DNA from: Clostridiaceae bacterium
Lineage (GTDB): Bacteria; Bacillota; Clostridia; Acetivibrionales; DTU013
Direction of reading: 5' to 3'
DNA length: 34,819 bases
NCBI GenBank assembly: GCA_012730015.1
Contig: JAAYBT010000118.1
Span: 1-34,819 of the forward strand
The notes below the pieces were generated by a model. That model saw only the letters and a program-made list of their open reading frames with translations. It searched no databases and was not told where the DNA came from. Both the position numbers and the translations under genes were made by a program. Each line of letters begins with the position of its first letter. Position 1 is the stretch's first letter. Below are positions 2,956 to 34,618 of the stretch, piece by piece.

Positions 2956-2983
2956 AAAAAAGGCCATGCATCTGCGCATAGCC
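2956..2983 (-). terminator. Intrinsic terminator after secG
   Basis: On the minus strand, GGCTATGC and GCATGGCC form an 8-bp stem with one G-U pair around a 6-nt loop, followed directly by six T residues. It lies 20 bp past the secG stop and 60 bp before the rnr start. Confidence 0.85.
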
Positions 2984-3003
2984 TCTTGAGCACCAAGCAT
3001 TAT

Positions 3004-3246
3004 TTATTTTAGAACAAGAAACAGTACGATAGATGTAACCATGAACATGATCGCTACTGCGGACGTATACTTGCTCAAAATAGCATCCATTGTCCTGCCT
3101 TTGTTTTTCCCAAAAAACGTTTCTGCTCCACCGGCTATAGATCCCGAAAGTCCTTCGGACTTAGCAGACTGCAGTAAGATTATAATAATGATGGCTAAGG
3201 AAAAAATTATCTGTAACACCGAAACAATAATCTGAGCCGCTGTCAA
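3004..3246 (-). CDS. secG: Preprotein translocase subunit SecG
   Basis: SecG is the small membrane subunit of the SecYEG translocon and stimulates preprotein export. The ORF track extends to 3294, but the best start is TTG at 3246: GGGAGG lies 8 bases upstream, and the extra upstream residues are not SecG-like. The resulting 80-residue protein has two hydrophobic segments (about residues 5-27 and 57-78) flanking a polar loop with QSAKSEGLSGSIAGGAETFFGK, the SecG family signature. The position between eno and rnr is usual in Firmicutes. The terminator immediately downstream ends this transcript. Confidence 0.93.
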   Translation of the reverse strand: MTAAQIIVSVLQIIFSLAIIIIILLQSAKSEGLSGSIAGGAETFFGKNKGRTMDAILSKYTSAVAIMFMVTSIVLFLVLK

Positions 3247-13843: not shown

Positions 13844-15130
13844 ATGAGTAATACAAAGTACAACCCTTATGAAAATGCACAGGCACAGTTTGATAAAGTG
13901 GCTTCCATCCTTAATCTGGATGAGGCAACCCGCGAGCTGCTTCGCCAGCCTATGCGTGAGTATCATGTAACAATACCTGTTCATATGGACGACGGTAGTG
14001 TCAAGGTGTTTAAGGCATATCGCATACAGCACAATGATGCAAGAGGCCCGGCAAAGGGAGGAATACGCTTCCATCCTCAAGAGACTATTGATACAATTCG
14101 TGCCTTATCTATGTGGATGACATGGAAATGCGCCGTTGTAGATATCCCCCTTGGCGGTGGTAAGGGTGGCGTTATTTGTGATACCCATAATCTTTCACCG
14201 CGTGAGCAGGAGCAAATATGCCGCGGGTATGTGCGGCAGCTGGCTTCCAACATAGGCCCAAACAATGATGTTCCCGCTCCTGATGTTATGACGAATGCGC
14301 AGCATATGCTTTGGATGCTGGACGAATATGAGACCATACATGGCGGACGCTATCCGGGATTTATCACCGGTAAGCCGGTGGGCATGGGAGGATCTCTTGG
14401 AAGAACCGAGGCTACAGGCTTTGGTGTAGTTTACGTTCTAAACGAAGCATTGAAAGAGCTGGGAATAGACATTGAGAGCACCTCCGCTTCCTTCCAGGGC
14501 TTTGGAAATGTGGCGCAATACGCTGTCAGATTGTACCTGCAGCTGGGCGGAAAGGTTACTGCCATATCCTGCTGGGACAATAAAGATAAGAAGTCATACA
14601 CCTTCCGCAATGTAAATGGAATGGATATTGACTCACTACTCAGCATTACAGACTCCTTTGGCACTATAGACAAGGACAAGGCAAAGGCACTGGGCTATGA
14701 AATACTTCCTGGAGAAGCATGGATCGAGCAGGATGTTGATATTCTCGTGCCGGCTGCTTTGGAAAATCAGATCACCGCAGAAAATGTAAATAAGATAAGC
14801 AAGCAGGTAAAGGTCATTACCGAGGCTGCAAACGGTCCTACAACTCCTGATGCGGATAAAGTCATCAATGATCGTGGTATCTTCGTTTTGCCGGACTTCC
14901 TGACCAATGCCGGAGGAGTTACCTGTAGCTATTTTGAACAGGTCCAGTGTAATATGAACTATTTTTGGCAGAAGGATGAGGTTCTGGAAAAGTTGAATAC
15001 CAAAATGACCTCAGCATTCAAAGCCGTATATGAAATGGCACAAAGCAGGAAGCTTACAATGCGAGACGCCGCATATGTCATATCAATAAACAGGGTCGCC
15101 GAGGCAGTCAAACGCCGCGGTTGGGTATAG
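13844..15130 (+). CDS. gdh: Glutamate dehydrogenase (Glu/Leu/Phe/Val dehydrogenase family)
   Basis: The enzyme reversibly deaminates glutamate to 2-oxoglutarate and ammonia. The 428-residue length fits the hexameric, usually NAD-linked and catabolic type found in amino-acid-fermenting clostridia. Visible motifs are RGPAKGGIRFHPQ, TWKCAVVDIPLGGGKGGV with the catalytic lysine near residue 110, and QGFGNVAQYAVRLYLQLGG for the nucleotide-binding fold. TEAANGPTTPDAD is also present. AGGAGGAAC precedes the ATG. It is the only clear plus-strand gene in the core part of the window, with its own consensus promoter, a structured leader and a strong terminator, so it is monocistronic. The cofactor preference is inferred from length and family, not proven. 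Confidence 0.95.
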   Translation: MSNTKYNPYENAQAQFDKVASILNLDEATRELLRQPMREYHVTIPVHMDDGSVKVFKAYRIQHNDARGPAKGGIRFHPQETIDTIRALSMWMTWKCAVVDIPLGGGKGGVICDTHNLSPREQEQICRGYVRQLASNIGPNNDVPAPDVMTNAQHMLWMLDEYETIHGGRYPGFITGKPVGMGGSLGRTEATGFGVVYVLNEALKELGIDIESTSASFQGFGNVAQYAVRLYLQLGGKVTAISCWDNKDKKSYTFRNVNGMDIDSLLSITDSFGTIDKDKAKALGYEILPGEAWIEQDVDILVPAALENQITAENVNKISKQVKVITEAANGPTTPDADKVINDRGIFVLPDFLTNAGGVTCSYFEQVQCNMNYFWQKDEVLEKLNTKMTSAFKAVYEMAQSRKLTMRDAAYVISINRVAEAVKRRGWV

Positions 15131-17735: not shown

Positions 17736-17909
17736 TTAAATCCCTCCTCCCTGCATATCCTGCGGGAGAATATTATCCAGAACAAAAACTCCTCTGGATG
17801 GAATATTGTCTGTCTGTTGGTTCCCCATAAATAGCCAGGCCAATAGAACCATAATAATTATTGTCATAATAATAAAAATCACTTTGTGTCTGTTGATTAC
17901 TGCTAACAT
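17736..17909 (-). CDS. Small single-pass membrane protein before spoVAC
   Basis: This 57-residue protein is not one I can name. It has a short basic start (MLAVINRHK), one strongly hydrophobic segment (about residues 9-29) and a polar tail. GAGGTG precedes the ATG at 17909; the ORF track starts three codons earlier at GTG. Its stop abuts the TTG of spoVAC, and its last codons supply the spoVAC ribosome binding site. This argues that it is a real, translationally coupled gene. It is the first gene after the sigma-G-type promoter, so it should be expressed in the forespore. A role in SpoVA assembly or the spore membrane is inference from position. Confidence 0.75.
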   Translation of the reverse strand: MLAVINRHKVIFIIMTIIIMVLLAWLFMGNQQTDNIPSRGVFVLDNILPQDMQGGGI

Positions 17910-17952
17910 AAAATACACCTCGATTTGATTGACTTTTAGCTCAGCCTCTTCT

Positions 17953-17983
17953 TATTATGCAGACAAAGCAAAGCAAGTATGCA
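17953..17983 (-). promoter_or_regulatory. Sigma-G (forespore) type promoter of the spoVA cluster
   Basis: On the minus strand GCATA (within TGCATA) and CATAATA are separated by exactly 18 bp. This matches the Bacillus sigma-G consensus at every position; sigma-F promoters are similar. It lies between sigF and the small membrane gene, 44 bp before that gene's ATG. Confidence 0.75.
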
Positions 17984-18017
17984 GAAAATAAATGTTAATA
18001 TTGAAGCCTATAAAGGT

Positions 18018-18764
18018 TTAGAAATGATTTATTTTTTCACGTATGTTTTCAAGAATCTTTTTCTCAATTCGTGATACCTGCACCTGCGATATCCCAAGCA
18101 TCTTAGCGATCTGAACCTGGGTTTTCTCTTTAAAATATCTCAGAACAATGATTTGCTTTTCTCGAGGCTTTAGCGTATCCATCACCTGTCTTAGGGCTAT
18201 CCTATCAACGATGTCCGACTCGTTATCACTACAGCTATCATTGAGCTTATCAATAAGCATCAGGGATGAATTGTCACCATCGCCAACCGAATTGAAGAGT
18301 GAGTCAGGAGAGTGAGCGGCTTCAACAGCCATGGCAAGCTCTTCGACAGGAATGTCAAGCCGCTGCGCAATCTCACCGATAGCCGGTTCCCGTCCAAGCT
18401 CCTTGCTCATGACCTCTCTGACAACTCTGGCCTTAATAGATGTTTCCTTAAGAGAGCGACTCACCTTAATTATACCGTCATCGCGCAGAAAACGCTTGAT
18501 TTCTCCTATAATCATCGGTACGGCATAGGTCGAAAGCTTAACGTCAAAGGAGGTGTCAAATTTGTTTATAGCCTTAATTAACCCGATACATCCTATCTGA
18601 AATAGGTCCTCTGTTTCATGGCCTCTATTTTGAAATCTTCGCACAAGACTCCACACAAGGCCAATATTCTTCTCCACAAGATAGCTTTGGGCAAGCTTGT
18701 CGCCTTCCTTTGCCATAATAATCAATTTTATTGTATCTATACCTTCATATGGACTCTCGCTCAT
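18018..18764 (-). CDS. sigF: Forespore RNA polymerase sigma factor SigF
   Basis: SigF is the first forespore-specific sigma factor. The protein has the sigma-70 region 2 text EDLFQIGCIGLIKAINKFD, KLSTYAVPMIIGEIKRFLRD and, at the end, the region 4 helix-turn-helix around KEKTQVQIAKMLGISQVQVS. The start is ATG 18764 (MSESPYEGID), 8-9 bases after AGAAAGG; the seven extra residues of the ORF track lack a ribosome binding site. That gives 248 residues. SigG is very similar, but location next to spoIIAA-spoIIAB identifies it as SigF. A terminator sits between spoIIAB and this gene, which is unusual. Confidence 0.95.
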   Translation of the reverse strand: MSESPYEGIDTIKLIIMAKEGDKLAQSYLVEKNIGLVWSLVRRFQNRGHETEDLFQIGCIGLIKAINKFDTSFDVKLSTYAVPMIIGEIKRFLRDDGIIKVSRSLKETSIKARVVREVMSKELGREPAIGEIAQRLDIPVEELAMAVEAAHSPDSLFNSVGDGDNSSLMLIDKLNDSCSDNESDIVDRIALRQVMDTLKPREKQIIVLRYFKEKTQVQIAKMLGISQVQVSRIEKKILENIREKINHF

Positions 18765-18899: not shown

Positions 18900-19335
18900 G
18901 TAAGCCATCCAATGAGTTAAACTCCTTATAGAGGGTCACAGTTGTTCCTTCGCCAGGCTTTGAGCGCACCTGAATTTTGTCCATAAAGCTCTGCATGACT
19001 GTAAAGCCCATCCCCGACCTCTCCATATCCGGCTTGGATGTATACAGGGGCTGCATGGCCTCCTCAATGTTTTCAATACCTTTACCTTCGTCAGATATTT
19101 CAATTTCAACGCTCTTCTCAAACTGACGGCAAACCATTTTAATAATACCATACCGGTTTTCATAGCCGTGAATAATTGCGTTTGTAACTGCCTCTGAAAC
19201 TGCAGTTTTTACATCGGCAAGCTCCTCAATAGTAGGATCCAACTGGGATGCAAACGCAGCCGCCACCACCCTTGCAAAGGCTTCATTGCTCGATTTGCTC
19301 ACAAATTCCAGTTTCATTTCATTTATTGGCTGCAT
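18895..19335 (-). CDS. spoIIAB: Anti-sigma F factor SpoIIAB
   Basis: SpoIIAB is a GHKL-fold serine kinase that holds SigF inactive and phosphorylates SpoIIAA. The N-box [17 protein letters not shown] is near residue 45, the G1 box ISDEGKGI near residue 80, and a glycine-rich [14 protein letters not shown] near residue 105. The start is ATG 19335 ([11 protein letters not shown]), 7 bases after GAGGGAGAG, giving 146 residues. The 20 extra N-terminal residues in the ORF track overlap spoIIAA and do not match the family. Confidence 0.95.
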
Positions 19336-19387
19336 ACCACTTCTCTCCCTCAATAAAAATCTGTGTACTACTACCTGTCGCCGTCGC

Positions 19388-19732
19388 TCATGCACTTAGT
19401 AATGCCTGTAGGGCACTGTCCAAATTCTCGAAAACGGGCATAAGCTTTAAAATCCCCGATATCTCCAACAAGCGGTAAATCTTTTGATTACTACATATAA
19501 TCACTGAACGCCCTCCGAGCTTCATGATCTTGGCGTATCTGCCAACAATCACTCCAATGCCGGAGCTATCCATAAAGTTTAGCCCTGTTAAATCAAAAAC
19601 CACATTTCGTGTAGTAGCCTTCATTAGCTCCCGCTCAATTTTATTGCGGGCATATTCCGCAAAGTGATGGTCCAGCTCCCCGGTGAACATGGCAATTAAG
19701 GTCGATCCCCTATTGGAAAATTTTATATCCAA
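19388..19732 (-). CDS. spoIIAA: Anti-sigma F factor antagonist SpoIIAA
   Basis: SpoIIAA is a STAS-domain protein; its unphosphorylated form binds SpoIIAB and frees SigF. The 114-residue protein has [20 protein letters not shown], in which the second serine of DSSG is the phosphorylation site. The start is TTG at 19732, 8 bases after GGAGGAG. The gap to spoIIAB is 52 bp. It is the first gene of the locus, downstream of a possible sigma-H promoter. Confidence 0.95.
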
Positions 19733-29191: not shown

Positions 29192-29464
29192 CTAAATTCC
29201 GCCGGAGGCGTATAATAGCCTCAAATAGCCTTTCCTTATAATGATGCGCCTGCTCCAGCATCATGTCCTTGACCTCTCTAAGTCTAATGTACCATTTCGT
29301 CCCAAACAGTCTTTTTTATTACCTTTTACCTTTATTAACATCCAATTGTATACCACCTTATGGTAAGCAATGTTATGCTGATCTCGGTAAAATCTCGGTA
29401 AAAGCCCCCGACGTTTCATGCAACGTTTCGTAATAAATGGGGGTTCCTATTGCGAAAATGAGTA

Positions 29465-29618
29465 GACCAACGCCGCTTTTGGACTAGCGGAGCCCCCCTT
29501 CCTTGGCGGCGCTTGCCGCCCGGTGAAGGAATGTGGTGCCTGCTCGCGCTCCTGCTGTCGATGGTATAAGGCTGGGTGACTTTCCCCTGGCACCCTTGCG
29601 CTGACTGCTTTGTTATGT
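29465..29618 (-). repeat. attC-like site A (after TrmO), decayed on one side
   Basis: On the minus strand the site opens with ACATAAC, a 3-base spacer and GCAGTCA. It keeps the inner GGTGCC/GGCACC arms and a GGCGGC/GCCGCC hairpin. The far end has only a poor core (GTTGGTC) and no box complementary to GCAGTCA. As the last site of the array it may be an inactive remnant. Confidence 0.5.
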
Positions 29619-29733
29619 AAAGTACCGCCCACCCTCCGGCCGCACGGCAAGGCCAAGGCTGGAGCCCCTTTTCTGTTCATATTAATTTATATAATATTCG
29701 TTGATATTTTCACCGCACCAAATTGAAATTCAA

Positions 29734-30189
29734 TTAGAAATAATGCTCCATTAATCTGTACACCCATTCCGGCACAGTAGCATTTTCCTTATAATCATAC
29801 ATTGGATAGTAAGGTTTGATATCTATTATTGGAGTTGAGTTAATTGCATCCAGCCCCTTTACAATCAGTGTATCATTTTTTAACGACATGATTTGAACTG
29901 CTGTTATTCCAATTTGATTTGGCCTATCCTTCCCTCTTTGAGAAAAGATGCCTACTAAAGGCATATCTTCTCTGTTTTGCGGCTTGCGCTGTATATGTTT
30001 ATCTCTTTCAAAATGTGCTTTATCTAAATAATAAATAATAATTGCATGAGAAAAATCATCTAAACCTTTTAGGCCACCTGAGTATTCTTCTTCTAATATG
30101 ATTTTTGATACATCCTCACCCCAAGTAGTGTCCTTTCTATTTTCTATTTCGTTACTCACGTAACCAATCGGATTTAATGATATAGTCAT
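29734..30189 (-). CDS. TrmO/TsaA-like tRNA methyltransferase (cassette gene)
   Basis: The 151-residue protein belongs to the UPF0066 family. E. coli TrmO in this family methylates N6-threonylcarbamoyladenosine at position 37 of certain tRNAs with S-adenosylmethionine. Signatures are NPIGYVSNEI at the start, GLKGLDDFSHAIIIYY, GIFSQRGKDRPNQIGIT (normally F-x-T-R-S-P-x-R-P-N-P-I-G) and LDAINSTPIIDIKPYYP. It is near the single-domain length and lacks the C-terminal extension of longer forms. AAAGGAG precedes the ATG. It sits between two attC-like repeats and is probably a mobile paralogue. Its target may differ from the housekeeping enzyme. Confidence 0.85.
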   Translation of the reverse strand: MTISLNPIGYVSNEIENRKDTTWGEDVSKIILEEEYSGGLKGLDDFSHAIIIYYLDKAHFERDKHIQRKPQNREDMPLVGIFSQRGKDRPNQIGITAVQIMSLKNDTLIVKGLDAINSTPIIDIKPYYPMYDYKENATVPEWVYRLMEHYF

Positions 30190-30316
30190 TATTCAATCTC
30201 CTTTACAAATTCCTCTTTATATAATATTTACTTTATACGTGGCGCATCCTTTTTACAGAGCGCTTGTTATTCGCCCGACGGCCGGAAGCCCGGGCGACGT
30301 CGATGGACTACATTTC

Positions 30317-30452
30317 GCAGAACGTGTTCGCACTCACGACATCCTTGAACCGGACCTCAGAGCCCTTCTCCTTAGCGGAGCTCCGCTCCCGGTGAGACGG
30401 TGTGGCAGACATGACCCGTGAGCACGCCCGAAGCGTGAAAATATTGTTCTCT
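30317..30452 (-). repeat. attC-like site F (between VOC and TrmO cassettes)
   Basis: On the minus strand the cores are AGAGAAC and GTTCTGC; here GTTC replaces GTTA at both ends, so the cores still pair over five bases. The inner boxes match poorly. A GCGGAGCTCCGC palindrome forms the apex. Outside the second core, a TCGCCCGG...CGGGCGA hairpin (30267-30296 region) is shared with sites C and D. Confidence 0.55.
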
Positions 30453-30593
30453 GATGTGAAGGGCTCTGCAAAGCCTAGCCGCCATGGACGGCGGCGCCCT
30501 TAAATAACTTTGAAAAACCACTTACTACATCATTTATAAAGATTACGACCACAATACTATCACTGTATATGTACTCTTATAATAAAGCGAAGG

Positions 30594-31016
30594 TTACCTA
30601 TCTGTCTGTTCTGTCATAAGTCCCCATCTAAAACCAAATTTGTCTATCAAACTACCTACACAGGAACTGTATGTCGTACTACGCAAAGGATAGATTATCG
30701 TACCTTCTTCTGATAAAATTCTATATGCTTGCTTAACCTCTTCTGCTGTATCAAATGTAATAGTCAAAAATATGGAAGTAGCTTTAGAATATTCTTGTTC
30801 CATTTCATCAGCAAGCATAAACCTCTGTCCTCCAATATATCCCTCTGAATGATATACGAATTTCTTTTGTTCCTCTGATAATTCAATATTCCAATCATGT
30901 TTGTCTGCATCACTATAATGCAATATATGACTGATTTTCAAATCAAAAGCTTTTTGATAAAAGCAAATCGCTTCTTCGCATCTTCCTTGAAAATGCAATG
31001 TAGGTGTAACAATCAT
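30594..31016 (-). CDS. VOC/PhnB-like glyoxalase-fold protein (cassette gene)
   Basis: The 140-residue protein resembles PhnB-like members of the vicinal oxygen chelate superfamily. It starts MIVTPTLHFQGRCEEAICFY, has HSEGYIGGQRFMLADEM in the middle, and ends with LIDKFGFRWGLMTE, the usual C-terminal strand. Relatives include resistance proteins, isomerases and binding proteins, so a specific activity cannot be assigned. The start is ATG 31016 or 31019; GGAGG at 8-base spacing favours 31016, and the longer ORF-track start lacks a ribosome binding site. It is a single-gene cassette between sites B and F. Confidence 0.82.
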   Translation of the reverse strand: MIVTPTLHFQGRCEEAICFYQKAFDLKISHILHYSDADKHDWNIELSEEQKKFVYHSEGYIGGQRFMLADEMEQEYSKATSIFLTITFDTAEEVKQAYRILSEEGTIIYPLRSTTYSSCVGSLIDKFGFRWGLMTEQTDR

Positions 31017-31143
31017 CATAATCCCCTCCGAAAAATATATAATCAATATTCCGCCTTATACAGCAATCGTGCATAGCAACCTTACATAGATAGAACCCAT
31101 GCATATCGGGCCACGGATGGCGCGTCCTTTTGCCCTCCATTTC

Positions 31144-31306
31144 AGAGAACGTCCCGGTTTTACGACGCCGACGAACCGGACCAGCGGAGTCCCTGGCGGT
31201 GCTTGCACCCGGTGAAGGAATGTGGTGTGCTGTAGGGACAATTATTTCAGGAACCAAATCCGGGACTCAGACCATGCACACCCTTGCGCCGACTGCTTTG
31301 TTATGC
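31144..31306 (-). repeat. attC-like site B (between YefM-YoeB and VOC cassettes)
   Basis: On the minus strand the site opens GCATAAC, AAA, GCAGTCG and ends GTTCTCT. The inner arms are GGTGTGC/GCACACC, a compensated change from the GGTGCC/GGCACC of sites A, C and E. The box before the second core is replaced by a CCGGTT/AACCGG hairpin, so the outer stem is incomplete. Confidence 0.6.
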
Positions 31307-31367
31307 GCAGTACCATCCACCTTCCAGCCGCACGGCAAGGCCAAGGCTGGAATTCCTTATAACTAAA

Positions 31368-31628
31368 TCAATCCTCATAATGTCCTTTACACGAAATAAT
31401 CATCAAATTGTTTTTATCATCAAAAACGTACACCAACCTATGTTCTTCGTTAATCCGTCTGCTCCAAGCCTTTCGATACTTTAGTGGTTCAGGTTTCCCA
31501 ATACCTTTTGATAAGCCATTTCTTTCAATATCTTTCACAAGATCATTAATACGTTTGAGTATCTTTTTATCTTGAGTTTGCCACGATAAATAATCATCCC
31601 AGGATCTATCCGACCATATTTTATTCAT
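31368..31628 (-). CDS. yoeB: YoeB-family toxin (cassette gene)
   Basis: The 86-residue protein matches YoeB, a ribosome-dependent mRNA endonuclease of the RelE fold. Signatures are MNKIWSDRSWDDYLSWQTQD, KRINDLVKDIERNG, GKPEPLKYRKAWSRRINEEH and a C-terminal IISCKGHYED, with the conserved arginine, glutamate, histidine and terminal tyrosine region. The ATG at 31628 overlaps the yefM stop by 8 bp and has GAGGTTAGTG upstream. Toxin-antitoxin cassettes are common in large chromosomal integrons, where they are thought to stabilise the array. Confidence 0.93.
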   Translation of the reverse strand: MNKIWSDRSWDDYLSWQTQDKKILKRINDLVKDIERNGLSKGIGKPEPLKYRKAWSRRINEEHRLVYVFDDKNNLMIISCKGHYED

Positions 31629-31875
31629 CACTAACCTCAATCAGTTCATGAACAGTTCCCTTTCCAGATGCAAGCTGTTCCATTGATCTGTCAATCATTG
31701 CAAGGTATTCTGCATTCCTCACTGCTTTTATCATTGAGTTGTATTCCTCTAGGCTTATTATTACTACATTCTTTTCATCTTTACGGGTAACAATTACTGT
31801 TTCACGATCATCAGTAACGCGATCACAATATTCCTTCAATTTATTTCTTATTGTTGAATAATTTACAGCCAACAT
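31621..31875 (-). CDS. yefM: YefM/Phd-family antitoxin (cassette gene)
   Basis: The 84-residue protein has the YefM/Phd N-terminal DNA-binding domain (MLAVNYSTIRNKLKEYCDRV, then VIVTRKDEKNVVIISLEEYN). An acidic C-terminal tail (VHELIEVSDE) follows that would neutralise YoeB. AAAGGAGATATTTG precedes the ATG. The pair has its own promoter and TGTAC-type operators, so expression does not depend on an integron promoter. Confidence 0.93.
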   Translation of the reverse strand: MLAVNYSTIRNKLKEYCDRVTDDRETVIVTRKDEKNVVIISLEEYNSMIKAVRNAEYLAMIDRSMEQLASGKGTVHELIEVSDE

Positions 31876-31898
31876 ATCAAATATCTCCTTTCACGTAC

Positions 31899-31926
31899 GT
31901 ACAATATTATGTACAATATATTGTAC
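31899..31926 (-). promoter_or_regulatory. YefM operator region
   Basis: GTACAATATATTGTAC (31911-31926) is a perfect 16-bp palindrome. A near copy, GTACAATATTATGTAC (31899-31914), overlaps it. TGTAC is the core of known YefM-YoeB operators. The palindrome overlaps the -10 box, consistent with autorepression. Confidence 0.7.
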
Positions 31927-31948
31927 CATTATTGCGCTTCATTTTCAA
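31920..31948 (-). promoter_or_regulatory. Promoter inside the yefM-yoeB cassette
   Basis: TTGAAA and TACAAT are separated by exactly 17 bp on the minus strand, 45 bp before the yefM ATG. Confidence 0.75.
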
Positions 31949-32019
31949 GAAATAATACACGTAGAGTGCATATTTTCGCCCGTGGTCGGAGACAGGGCGA
32001 CGTCGGTGGATGGTATTTC

Positions 32020-32238
32020 GCCTAACGTCTCGCAGTCGCGACGCCGATGAGCTGGACCCTCGAAACCCTTCTCCTTGGCGGTGCTTGCCACCTAGTATGT
32101 TGAGTGCGCTAGCACGAATTACCTTTACAACATACAAAGGAGCGAATCGGTGTGGTGCCTGCTCGCGCTCCTGCTGCCAATGGTATAAGATTGGATGTCA
32201 TTCTCCCTGGCACCCTTGCGCCGACTGCTTTGTTATGC
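32020..32238 (-). repeat. attC-like site C (between DUF3788/DUF3795 and YefM-YoeB cassettes)
   Basis: This is the best-formed site. On the minus strand it reads GCATAAC, AAA, GCAGTCG ... CGACTGC, GAGAC, GTTAGGC, so the outer boxes are fully complementary and both cores fit the integron consensus closely. Inner arms are GGTGCC/GGCACC and CTCCTT/AAGGAG. It contains a 53-bp hairpin segment identical to one in site E. Conserved hairpins continue outside both cores. Confidence 0.65.
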
Positions 32239-32383
32239 GTAGTGTTGCCCATCCTCCAGCCGCTCGGCGGAGTCAAAGCCGGATTTCCTTATTTATTCTT
32301 TTTTATTCTTTTTTCTTCTTTCAACATATATAAACATTACGCATCAATCTCGGTACAGAAAATGCTTATTTGCTTTGGTTTGA

Positions 32384-33114
32384 CTATTCATATTGAAATG
32401 GTACATAAGGTAAAACTGCCCATGTTATATCATCGGCTGAAATACTTCTTGGCTCTAATTGTCTGTAGCCAACAGTTGCGTTTTGACATGGATAAACAGC
32501 ACATTCTATACAGGTTTTATATTCTTTAGTTTGGAGACATTTCAATGGCTCGCACAACTCATTACCATCGCAATAACAATGACAGCCAGATGTATTACAT
32601 CCAGTGCAACGCATATTCCAATCGGGATTCCCATACACCGCAGTTAGATGTGGAATTAACATTTCTCTGAAATCTTCAGCAAGTCCTGTATAATGAACAC
32701 ACAAATCGCATCGGTGTCCGCATTTCCCATACACTGCATTTTCTTTTGGGAACGGTTTTCGATTAGGGTTTTTCTTGATTAAGACGAGTTTTTTTACTTC
32801 CTCTAAGGTTTTAAGGTTATCCACTCGTATCAAGAGCCATTTCCCATCATGAAGAGTGCGTTCTCTGTCATAAAGTTCTTGTATTTCTTTGGAGAATTCA
32901 TTACGCTGTGCATCAAATTTTTCTCGTTCTTTTTTACCGAGAATAAGCTGAAAATCATAGTGCTTCTCGTGTATATTAATAGAAAGAATGGTTTTTTTCC
33001 TTGACGAAACTTCAAGCAATCAATATCGTAATACTTGCCAGCTACTTCATCAAGTCGATATTTCCCACGCATAAATTTTACAGTTTCAAGCTTTACTTTA
33101 CCAAATTCGGTCAT
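32384..33114 (-). pseudogene. DUF3788-DUF3795 fusion gene with a frameshift at an A7 run (cassette gene)
   Basis: Two overlapping frames together make one protein of about 242 residues. The first part starts MTEFGKVKLETVKFMRGKYR (ATG 33114, after GGGGTG). It runs to RQGKK at an A7 run (32992-32998), then must shift by -1 (or gain one base) to continue as TILSINIHEKHYDFQLILGK. The N-terminal 130 residues resemble DUF3788. The C-terminal 90 resemble the cysteine-rich DUF3795 (CGHRCDLCVHY, then CTGCNTSGCHCYCDG), probably a metal-binding module. Without the shift, the first frame goes on through unrelated residues. Causes could be a mutation, a homopolymer sequencing error, or slippage at A-AAA-AAA. 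Function is unknown. Confidence 0.75.
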
Positions 33115-33264
33115 TATTCTTCACCCCGAGCTAATATAAATTTTGAGTGCTACAGTTTCAGTCTGCTTAAATAAATTATCCATACTGCACAATATCATAC
33201 CAATACGCAGAGCACCTTTTTCGCCCGACGACGGAGTCCGGGCGACGTCGGTGGAATGCATTTC

Positions 33265-33449
33265 ATATAACGGTTTGCATTTGCGACGCCTGCCTGCTTA
33301 CAGGAAGGCGCTTATGCCCGGGTGCCCTCCGGGCGGGCTAATGCGGCGACCGACTCGGTTAGCGGGCGGGTGTGAGCAGGAATGACATCATGCCCTGCTC
33401 ACAACGCCATGCTACATGCTTTGCCCTTTATGCAAATGCGTTGTTATGT
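33265..33449 (-). repeat. attC-like site D (between GNAT and DUF3788/DUF3795 cassettes)
   Basis: On the minus strand it reads ACATAAC, AAC, GCATTTGC ... GCAAATGC, AAACC, GTTATAT. The outer boxes differ in sequence from those of sites C and E but remain fully complementary, and the 3-base and 5-base spacers are the same. Inner arms TGTGAGCAGG/CCTGCTCACA also pair. This covariation is strong evidence for a folded site. Confidence 0.65.
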
Positions 33450-33497
33450 AAAGTTGCGCGCCCCTCGAAGCCAGAGATTGACAGGACGTCAGTCCCA

Positions 33498-34331
33498 TTA
33501 ATTCTTTGAGTTTAAGCTAAACCAATACACATTATACTCATATTCTTTAATAAATCCCAGTTTTTCAGCTAAGTTATAAGATGCTACATTATCTTTCATA
33601 CAGTCCCAATATGAATTAGCTCCAAGATTCATATGTGCTTTTTTTACCTCTTGTGCTACTAATTCGGCAAAACCCCTGCGTCGATAATCCTTTACTGTTT
33701 CAATACCTATTGTATATGTTGAACCTGCAATAAATCCTGTGTACGCAGTACTCACAATCCATTTATCTGTAGTAATACAGTACCCAACACCTTTAGATAA
33801 AAAATTAGTCTTTGTCCCCCAAAAACTTTCAATGATATTTAATAAAAACTCAATATTTTCATACTCTTTTGATTTTTCCAAAACATTACTTATTGACTGA
33901 AGATAGAAACCTTGTGGAACATGACTAACTTGATTAATGTTGAAATCTGACTTTTTGAATGTATAGACAATTTGTTTTCCAACACAAAGACCTCTAGACG
34001 AGAAAACATCTTCAATTGTCTGTTCCCATCCAGGGTCACCACTTACCTCAAAATCATTGAAGCCAACATCCTTGAGCCTTTGAACCAAATATCCATCTAT
34101 AAAAGAATTTAATCCACTGATAAATGTATTATTTTCACAATCTCCTATTAAATGAAAGCCTTCCATTCCTTTGCACCAAATTAAGGCTGTTATCGGATTA
34201 TCCTTACTATCAACAAAAATCCATCCAGGATTATTACCATCAACAACCGCAATAGCTTCTGGCCTAAACTTATTTTTTCGTTCAATTAAATCTTTGACTA
34301 AATAAAAATCTTCATTATGTAGCTCAATCAT
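33498..34331 (-). CDS. GNAT-family acetyltransferase (cassette gene)
   Basis: The 277-residue protein has two parts. The N-terminal 130 residues (DFYLVKDLIERKNKFRPEA, WIFVDSKDNPITALIWCKG) look like a degenerate GNAT-like repeat. The C-terminal 130 residues carry a standard acetyl-CoA-binding region, TIGIETVKDYRRRGFAELVA, followed by SYWDCMKDNVASYNLAEKLG. This layout resembles the GNAT_acetyltran group. The substrate is unknown; acetyltransferases, including antibiotic-modifying ones, are frequent cassette genes. The ATG at 34331 begins 67 bp after site E. Confidence 0.85.
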   Translation of the reverse strand: MIELHNEDFYLVKDLIERKNKFRPEAIAVVDGNNPGWIFVDSKDNPITALIWCKGMEGFHLIGDCENNTFISGLNSFIDGYLVQRLKDVGFNDFEVSGDPGWEQTIEDVFSSRGLCVGKQIVYTFKKSDFNINQVSHVPQGFYLQSISNVLEKSKEYENIEFLLNIIESFWGTKTNFLSKGVGYCITTDKWIVSTAYTGFIAGSTYTIGIETVKDYRRRGFAELVAQEVKKAHMNLGANSYWDCMKDNVASYNLAEKLGFIKEYEYNVYWFSLNSKN

Positions 34332-34398
34332 TATTCCTTACCCAGAGCCTTCCCTAGTATTCCCGTGCCCGGACGGCATGGTTTTTGCACTGTCTTTC

Positions 34399-34618
34399 TG
34401 CTAACGTCTCGCAGTCGCGAAGCCGATGAGCAGTGACCCGCGCTAACCCTTCTCCCTGGCGGTGCTTGCCACCTAGTATGTTGAGTGCGCTAGCACGAAT
34501 TACCTTTACAACATACAAAGGAGCGATTCGTTGTGGTGCCTGCTCGGGCTACTTCTGTTAATGGTATAAGGTCAGATGTCTTTCCCCAGGCACCCTTGCG
34601 CCGACTGCTTTGTTAGCT
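34399..34618 (-). repeat. attC-like site E (between the edge-cut gene and the GNAT cassette)
   Basis: On the minus strand it reads AGCTAAC, AAA, GCAGTCG ... CGACTGC, GAGAC, GTTAGCA, with the same outer boxes and spacers as site C. It shares GGTGCC/GGCACC arms and a 53-bp segment identical to one in site C. The first core lies 47 bp after the stop of the edge-cut gene. Confidence 0.65.

Follow-up and report, generated by a model that had tools for sequence, protein, structure and literature searches.

The window (the whole stretch of DNA analysed, 34,819 nt) is the complete contig C47 from the draft genome of a clostridial bacterium; the assembly totals 2.85 Mb in 278 contigs and is 87% complete. 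Chromosomal genes occupy 1-29 kb, and a cassette array extends from 29.4 kb to the contig end. The array carries genes for TrmO, a VOC-fold protein, YefM-YoeB, DUF3788/DUF3795 proteins and a GNAT acetyltransferase, which is typical cassette cargo, and every cassette gene lies on the minus strand. The genes are separated by sites of 120-210 nt with AAC and GTT cores at their two ends; the cassettes and sites described below are all assigned to the minus strand. Read in that direction from the contig end, the first site is site E (body 34406..34611), the attC of a cassette that runs off the contig. It is followed by the GNAT acetyltransferase cassette (33271..34404) with site D as its attC (body 33272..33442), the DUF3788/DUF3795 cassette (32026..33270) with site C (body 32027..32231), the yefM-yoeB cassette (31150..32025) with site F (body 31151..31299), the VOC cassette (30323..31149) with site B (body 30324..30445) and the TrmO cassette (29612..30322, gene 29734-30189). 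Site A (29460..29611, the boundary being approximate) is the last attC-like site and marks the chromosomal (distal) end of the array; its far end is degenerate. The L arms pair within sites C (GCAGTCG), D (GCATTTGC) and E and pair poorly in B and F, the L''/L' of site F being unpaired and mosaic-looking. The DUF3788 part (32830-33114) begins in another frame, with a T run near 32990, which reflects a frameshift, decay or an assembly error. An Rfam scan of the array gave nothing above threshold, a plasmid search with site C gave no match and a viral-contig pattern scan gave no matches.

The VOC cassette, as it would be excised by a cut between G and TT, comprises 827 bp in the order start arm, gene, end arm, site B; these limits were set from the gene orientation, the paired arms, the mark at position 11 and the cut point in relatives (see below). 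Its gene (30594..31046; Pfam 3-dmu-9_3-mt and Glyoxalase) encodes 150 aa from TTG 31046, or starts at ATG 31019. The start arm (S, GTTCTCTGAAATGGAGGGC in the minus-strand reading, 31132..31150) has the R' core of site F as its first 7 nt, and the end arm (E, 30446..30464, reverse complement GTTCTCTGATGTGAAGGGC) terminates in the R'' core of site B. The initial annotation had described GTTCTCT (30446-30452) and AGAGAAC (31144-31150) at the two edges as exact reverse complements; we located both, and found that the match continues beyond the core, GTTCTCTGATGTGAAGGGC and GTTCTCTGAAATGGAGGGC being identical at 16 of 19 nt. GTTC is, as also stated there, a minority core in the window, and recurs as GCAGAAC (30317-30323) at the TrmO edge. 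The edges of the yefM-yoeB cassette, likewise proposed to match, agree at 16/19 between S (32008-32026) and E (31300-31318). An unguided search for inverted repeats recovered both the VOC pair (GTTCTCTGATGTGAAGGGC / GCCCTCCATTTCAGAGAAC) and the yefM-yoeB pair (GTTATGCGCAGTACCATCCACC / GGTGGATGGTATTTCGCCTAAC), the two being repeats I12 and I4.

Arms are thus matched in two of the five complete cassettes of the window, those of the TrmO (11/19), DUF3788/DUF3795 (11/19) and GNAT (9/19) cassettes being unmatched and at background; the start arm of the TrmO cassette is instead similar to the arm that ends a cassette on contig C68. When we scanned for paired edges, the VOC and yefM pairs were the only ones in the array part of the window, and positions 1-26000 gave no matches on either strand, so the pairing of these two sets of edges is beyond chance.

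Within this genome, a scan that covered selected contigs showed similar sites on C68 and C241, and their cargo consists of what we take, from our reading of the sequences, to be HAD, methyltransferase, phosphotransferase-like and lipoprotein genes. The arrays on C47 and C68 both run distally into ordinary chromosomal genes, and this genome therefore has at least two separate arrays. Some attC-like sites contain, within their loop part, a palindromic element of ~45 nt (AGTATGTTGAGTGCGCTAGCACGAATTACCTTTACAACATACA) that is absent from others: copies lie at 32093-32140 (nested in site C) and 34474-34521 of the window, and in other loci at L017 minus 1591-1655, L018 minus 2405-2450 and L040 minus 2975-3020, and one C68 site bears a palindrome of this type twice. 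Judged by its sequence, the element is a candidate small insertion element nested in attC-like sites.

Paired arms at the cassette ends

To quantify the pairing, we compared S, read from GTT in the reading direction, with the reverse complement of the end (rcE) of the same cassette and with the rcE of other cassettes. In a set of 20 complete cassettes, drawn from five related genomes, the match between own arms exceeded all 20,000 permutations, with or without the core, in tests that take cassettes as independent though some share arms. Own versus other match in these 20 cassettes was 0.60 versus 0.49 at positions 4-7, 0.62 versus 0.53 at positions 8-12, 0.66 versus 0.34 at positions 13-17 and 0.61 versus 0.38 at positions 18-22 (0/5000 permutations for each of the last two), and the excess was gone at positions 23-27 (0.21 versus 0.20). 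With the 10 cassettes of the source genome alone, the test of positions 8-30 was significant (28/20,000) and that of the core was not (2812/20,000). The match of the 7-nt core taken by itself was dropped as evidence for the window on account of the latter result.

Two further genomes, G034 (a complete genome of 6.88 Mb) and G054, were found by a search with the integrase of the relative G001, some of whose sites are N-masked. For G034 and G054 we used the site bodies to define sites, listed the cassettes by hand from body motifs and checked their strings against the sequence. All 12 cassettes of G034 and all 10 of G054 had matched arms, with own versus other match at positions 13-17 of 0.97 versus 0.32 and 1.00 versus 0.29, respectively (0/5000 permutations each). 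Cassettes with a GAT core in these two genomes have ATC at the opposite end; position 2 therefore also belongs to the cassette. By sequence comparison, these results show what can be defined as a cassette arm of 19-22 nt, present as inverted copies specific to each cassette. As a control we used the superintegron of Vibrio sp. HDW18 (NZ_CP049914; 32 cassettes of one array), which gave 0.91 versus 0.61 and 0.59 versus 0.30 and no own-arm excess past position 12. The ends of canonical cassettes match over 9-11 nt (PMC2727003). Together with the ~12 nt of the Vibrio control, this indicates that the pairing follows an integron principle, with an arm about twice as long here.

A composite two-gene cassette was seen in the metagenome-assembled genome L040 (minus strand, ~1900-2140), in which the R' core of the inner attC has been lost and the outer arms, GTTATACGAAATGTAGTCC and GTTCTACGGAGTGTAGTCC, still match. 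Unmatched cassettes may be remnants of fusions of this kind.

Polarity and the point of crossover

The two arms of a cassette differ in a constant way at position 11: in 33/33 matched cassettes the start arm has A there and the end arm has G. The same holds for the window regardless of whether arms are matched, with G in 6/6 R'' arms and A in 5/5 R' arms. The A/G difference yields a G.T pair on the bottom strand and a C.A mismatch on the top strand, and position 6 often shows a similar asymmetry. Mismatches between own arms do not reflect a general bottom-strand wobble, an idea rejected on counts of 9 versus 9 outside positions 6 and 11; it is positions 6 and 11, and only these, that would favour use of the bottom strand. 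Start arms point toward the integrase in relatives.

Since the genes and the position-11 marks both lie on the minus strand, the attC of the VOC cassette is site B, and site F is that of yefM-yoeB. In this respect the initial annotation, which had given site F to the VOC cassette and had expected an empty junction of site B with TrmO, had the polarity reversed: the empty junction is predicted to be site F fused to the start of the TrmO cassette, ...GGGACG/TTCTGCGAAATG, cut G/TT. The rest of its interpretation, namely integron-type cassettes, the cut between G and TT and an edge that travels with the cassette, was borne out. It had missed the arm length of 19-22 nt, about twice the canonical one, and the fixed directional mark.

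Evidence on the cut came from relatives. L'' and L' pair within their own site (7.75 versus 4.3 in G034 and 8.27 versus 4.5 in G054, 0/20,000), whereas R arms match across the cassette at 16.6 and 16.9 of 19 positions in G034 and G054 and within their own site at only 10.2 and 10.7. The crossover therefore falls between L' and R', and the match of R arms across the cassette agrees with the proposal that the edge moves along and that circularization re-creates a matched attC. Moreover, G054 contains one cassette twice (17852-18544 and 18932-19616, 97% identical), and the repeated block begins exactly at TT and stops exactly at the G of the next GTT or its replacement. Crossover at G/TT of the R' core was thus observed in a relative, not for the VOC cassette itself. 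In locus L081 (10534-12075), one whole cassette is tandemly duplicated directly behind the G054 integrase, with 97% identity. Many L helices in G034 and G054 have ~9 uninterrupted pairs and, by alignment only, no clear bulge for extrahelical L'' bases.

The recombinase and the putative attI in relatives

The arrays of relatives are linked to enzymes that, as in the 400-aa protein of G001, are tyrosine recombinases with all catalytic motifs (R..K..HxxR..H..Y). The closest solved structure to the G001 enzyme is 2A3V (VchIntIA; E 2.5e-36), and the alignment with it skips the IntI insertion: the distance from the KDR motif to HTLRH is 58 residues versus 99 in IntI1, ~41 shorter. The match to TIGR02249 reached 211 bits in two pieces (cut-off 265), and the catalytic part scored 216.5 bits against the XerA-type model NF040815 (cut-off 220). 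This insertion, located near patch III, has been described as the feature that defines integron integrases (PMC9668308, PMC2426708), and the array-linked integrases of the relatives are without it. Most members have an N-terminal extension of 70-90 aa (GRKW...KIW.IP), for which 6/9 members gave a weak match to HARP (Pfam PF07443; best E 4.8e-4, below cut-off). A second enzyme of G054 (L084), which has no such extension, also precedes an array. In a tree, the array-linked enzymes stand apart from the Xer recombinases of the same genomes, with IntI1 and Xer joined by long branches that give no usable branching order. In G002, the integrase (L042:14177-15262) is flanked by two attC-like sites and is split in two frames near 14950, through either a frameshift or decay.

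In most cases among the relatives, a few to ~115 nt separate the integrase stop from the first cassette, which is preceded by one or two palindromes, for example ATTCACGAAcctatgTTCGTGAAT in G048; the window itself contains no region of this kind. From their sequence and position, these palindromes are a plausible, putative attI. One or two dif-like palindromes (ACGAA...TTCGT) are present in the attI-like regions of L083, L078, L079, L109 and L110.

Distribution among Clostridia

When the position-11 mark was included in the paired-edge scan, the first cassette was found shortly behind the integrase in G044, G042, G048, G054 and G034, and likewise in G269, G112, G207 and G185, which belong to other families of the class. 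Correct marks outnumbered swapped marks by 6:0 in G269, 5:0 in G112 and 6:0 in G207. A close homologue of the enzyme was present in 10/245 genomes drawn from the class, and similar sites also occur in G001, G002 and two further metagenome-assembled genomes, L039 and L040. Firmicutes have been described as nearly devoid of integrons, with one complete integron, in Limnochorda pilosa (PMC9024848), and surveys define integrons by the IntI insertion (PMC2426708). Searches of open papers gave no description of clostridial cassette arrays with such an integrase. The presence of integrase-linked arrays in several clostridial families suggests that the insertion criterion has caused a gene-capture system to be overlooked. 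Paired arms together with a directional mark make a simple search signature, which finds cassettes without an attC model.

Interpretation and alternatives

Overall, we consider it very probable that an integron-type cassette array, belonging to a lineage found across Clostridia, has its distal end in the last 5.4 kb of the window. The arrays look like a little-described lineage of integrons, or a clostridial integron variant, and the VOC cassette is probably an example of it that has partly decayed. In the mechanism that we propose, each unit would consist of a single gene or operon on the minus strand and, after it, an attC-like site of ~100-220 nt. By cutting the R' core between G and TT, a tyrosine recombinase would free the cassette as a circle, in which end arm, L'', loop, L' and start arm would form one long single-stranded hairpin with the arms paired at its base. 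The circle would then be reinserted at attI, one or two palindromes right behind the integrase gene, or at another site, and the asymmetry at position 11 (A in start, G in end) would signal polarity. The match between arms would be preserved because only the circle's own site has to fold and be cut. For the modelled circle junction of the VOC and yefM-yoeB cassettes, a hairpin is predicted on both strands. Points that count against this interpretation are the failure to find an integrase of this family in the source draft genome, so that the local array may be an orphan, the lack of any recombination event, circle or empty site seen for the VOC cassette, the unmatched arms in three of the five complete cassettes of the window, the poor L pairing in sites B and F, and recombinases in the relatives without the insertion held necessary for IntI activity.

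The strongest alternative, to which we give not far short of an even chance, is that the source array is a dead relic, that is, a cluster of attC sites without an integrase, whose edges match from past activity and in which nothing moves now. This would account for the failure to find an integrase of the array-linked family in the draft genome, for the three unmatched cassettes, for the degenerate state of sites A, B and F, and it would have a parallel in the apparently frameshifted integrase of the same family in G002. However, completeness of the genome is 87%, the contig stops inside the array, on the side expected to hold the integrase, and both matched cassettes retain 16/19. An integrase may lie beyond the contig end and may serve the array, or have served it in the past. 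For the VOC cassette, present-day mobility is doubtful, because L-arm pairing is poor in sites B and F.

The other alternatives fare far worse. G+C-rich hairpins adjoin the arms at both cassette ends and could work in RNA, so that the arms might act in transcription, as terminator-like structures or in mRNA folding, rather than in recombination; we regard this as improbable, since the arms lie 600-1000 nt apart across the gene and only the circle unites them, and since the sequence right behind the integrase, on the putative attI side, has a start arm as well. The inverted-repeat ends of ~19-22 nt on each unit would also suit MITE-like or transposon-like elements with terminal inverted repeats cut by a transposase. 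This is more improbable still: the units are arranged head to tail in a single orientation behind a tyrosine recombinase, the L arms pair within sites, and the shared block comprises the unit together with a single flanking site and extends from TT to G inside an attC-like site, leaving no space for target-site duplications. Least credible is the view that the VOC edges share their 7 nt by coincidence, some cassette among five being bound to match given the few core types, as the core-only result in the source genome (2812/20,000) would allow, because the match extends to 16/19 and the pairing of positions 8-30 is significant in the source genome (28/20,000) and overwhelming across all genomes.

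If the array is of the integron type, the question arises of how a recombinase without the IntI insertion recognizes a folded site. We tentatively suggest, while judging it somewhat less likely than its opposite, that a separate integron lineage is widespread in Clostridia, whose recombinase reads the cassette site otherwise: in place of the extrahelical bases that the IntI insertion reads, it would use a longer paired arm with a fixed G.T at position 11, to which the HARP-like N-terminal domain may bind. If true, surveys demanding that insertion would have missed a separate clostridial lineage.

Comparison with known systems

CALIN, clusters of attC sites without an integrase, have rarely been reported in Firmicutes (PMC9024848). 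The source array resembles them in that its contigs hold at least two attC-like sites with no integrase detected nearby; it may differ in that the draft genome is incomplete and the contig ends within the array, so that an integrase could have escaped detection, and in that relatives have linked integrases that a search requiring the insertion would miss. With XerA, XerC and XerD the clostridial enzymes share the near-threshold NF040815 score, and the putative attI palindromes resemble dif, whereas unlike Xer the enzymes are array-linked and separate in the tree from their genomes' own Xer. The likeness to IntI (IntI1, VchIntIA) lies in the tyrosine recombinase motifs and in 2A3V as nearest solved structure, and the difference in the absence of the IntI-specific insertion and, in most members, the N-terminal extension of 70-90 aa. 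Compared with sedentary chromosomal integrons such as the Vibrio superintegron, the clostridial arrays match over 19-22 nt rather than ~12 nt, have a fixed A/G at position 11, tolerate GAT/ATC cores, have sites of up to ~220 nt and have integrase and cassettes on one strand, the cassettes coming after the 3' end of the integrase. In common with the superintegron, they consist of single-gene cassettes placed head to tail, for the most part in the same orientation, every one having its attC; cores R'' and R' are present at every site, ending in AAC and starting with GTT, and enclose inverted L''/L' boxes, as in integrons; cassette ends match, the cut falls at G/TT, and the array begins, here in the relatives, at a putative attI beside a tyrosine recombinase.
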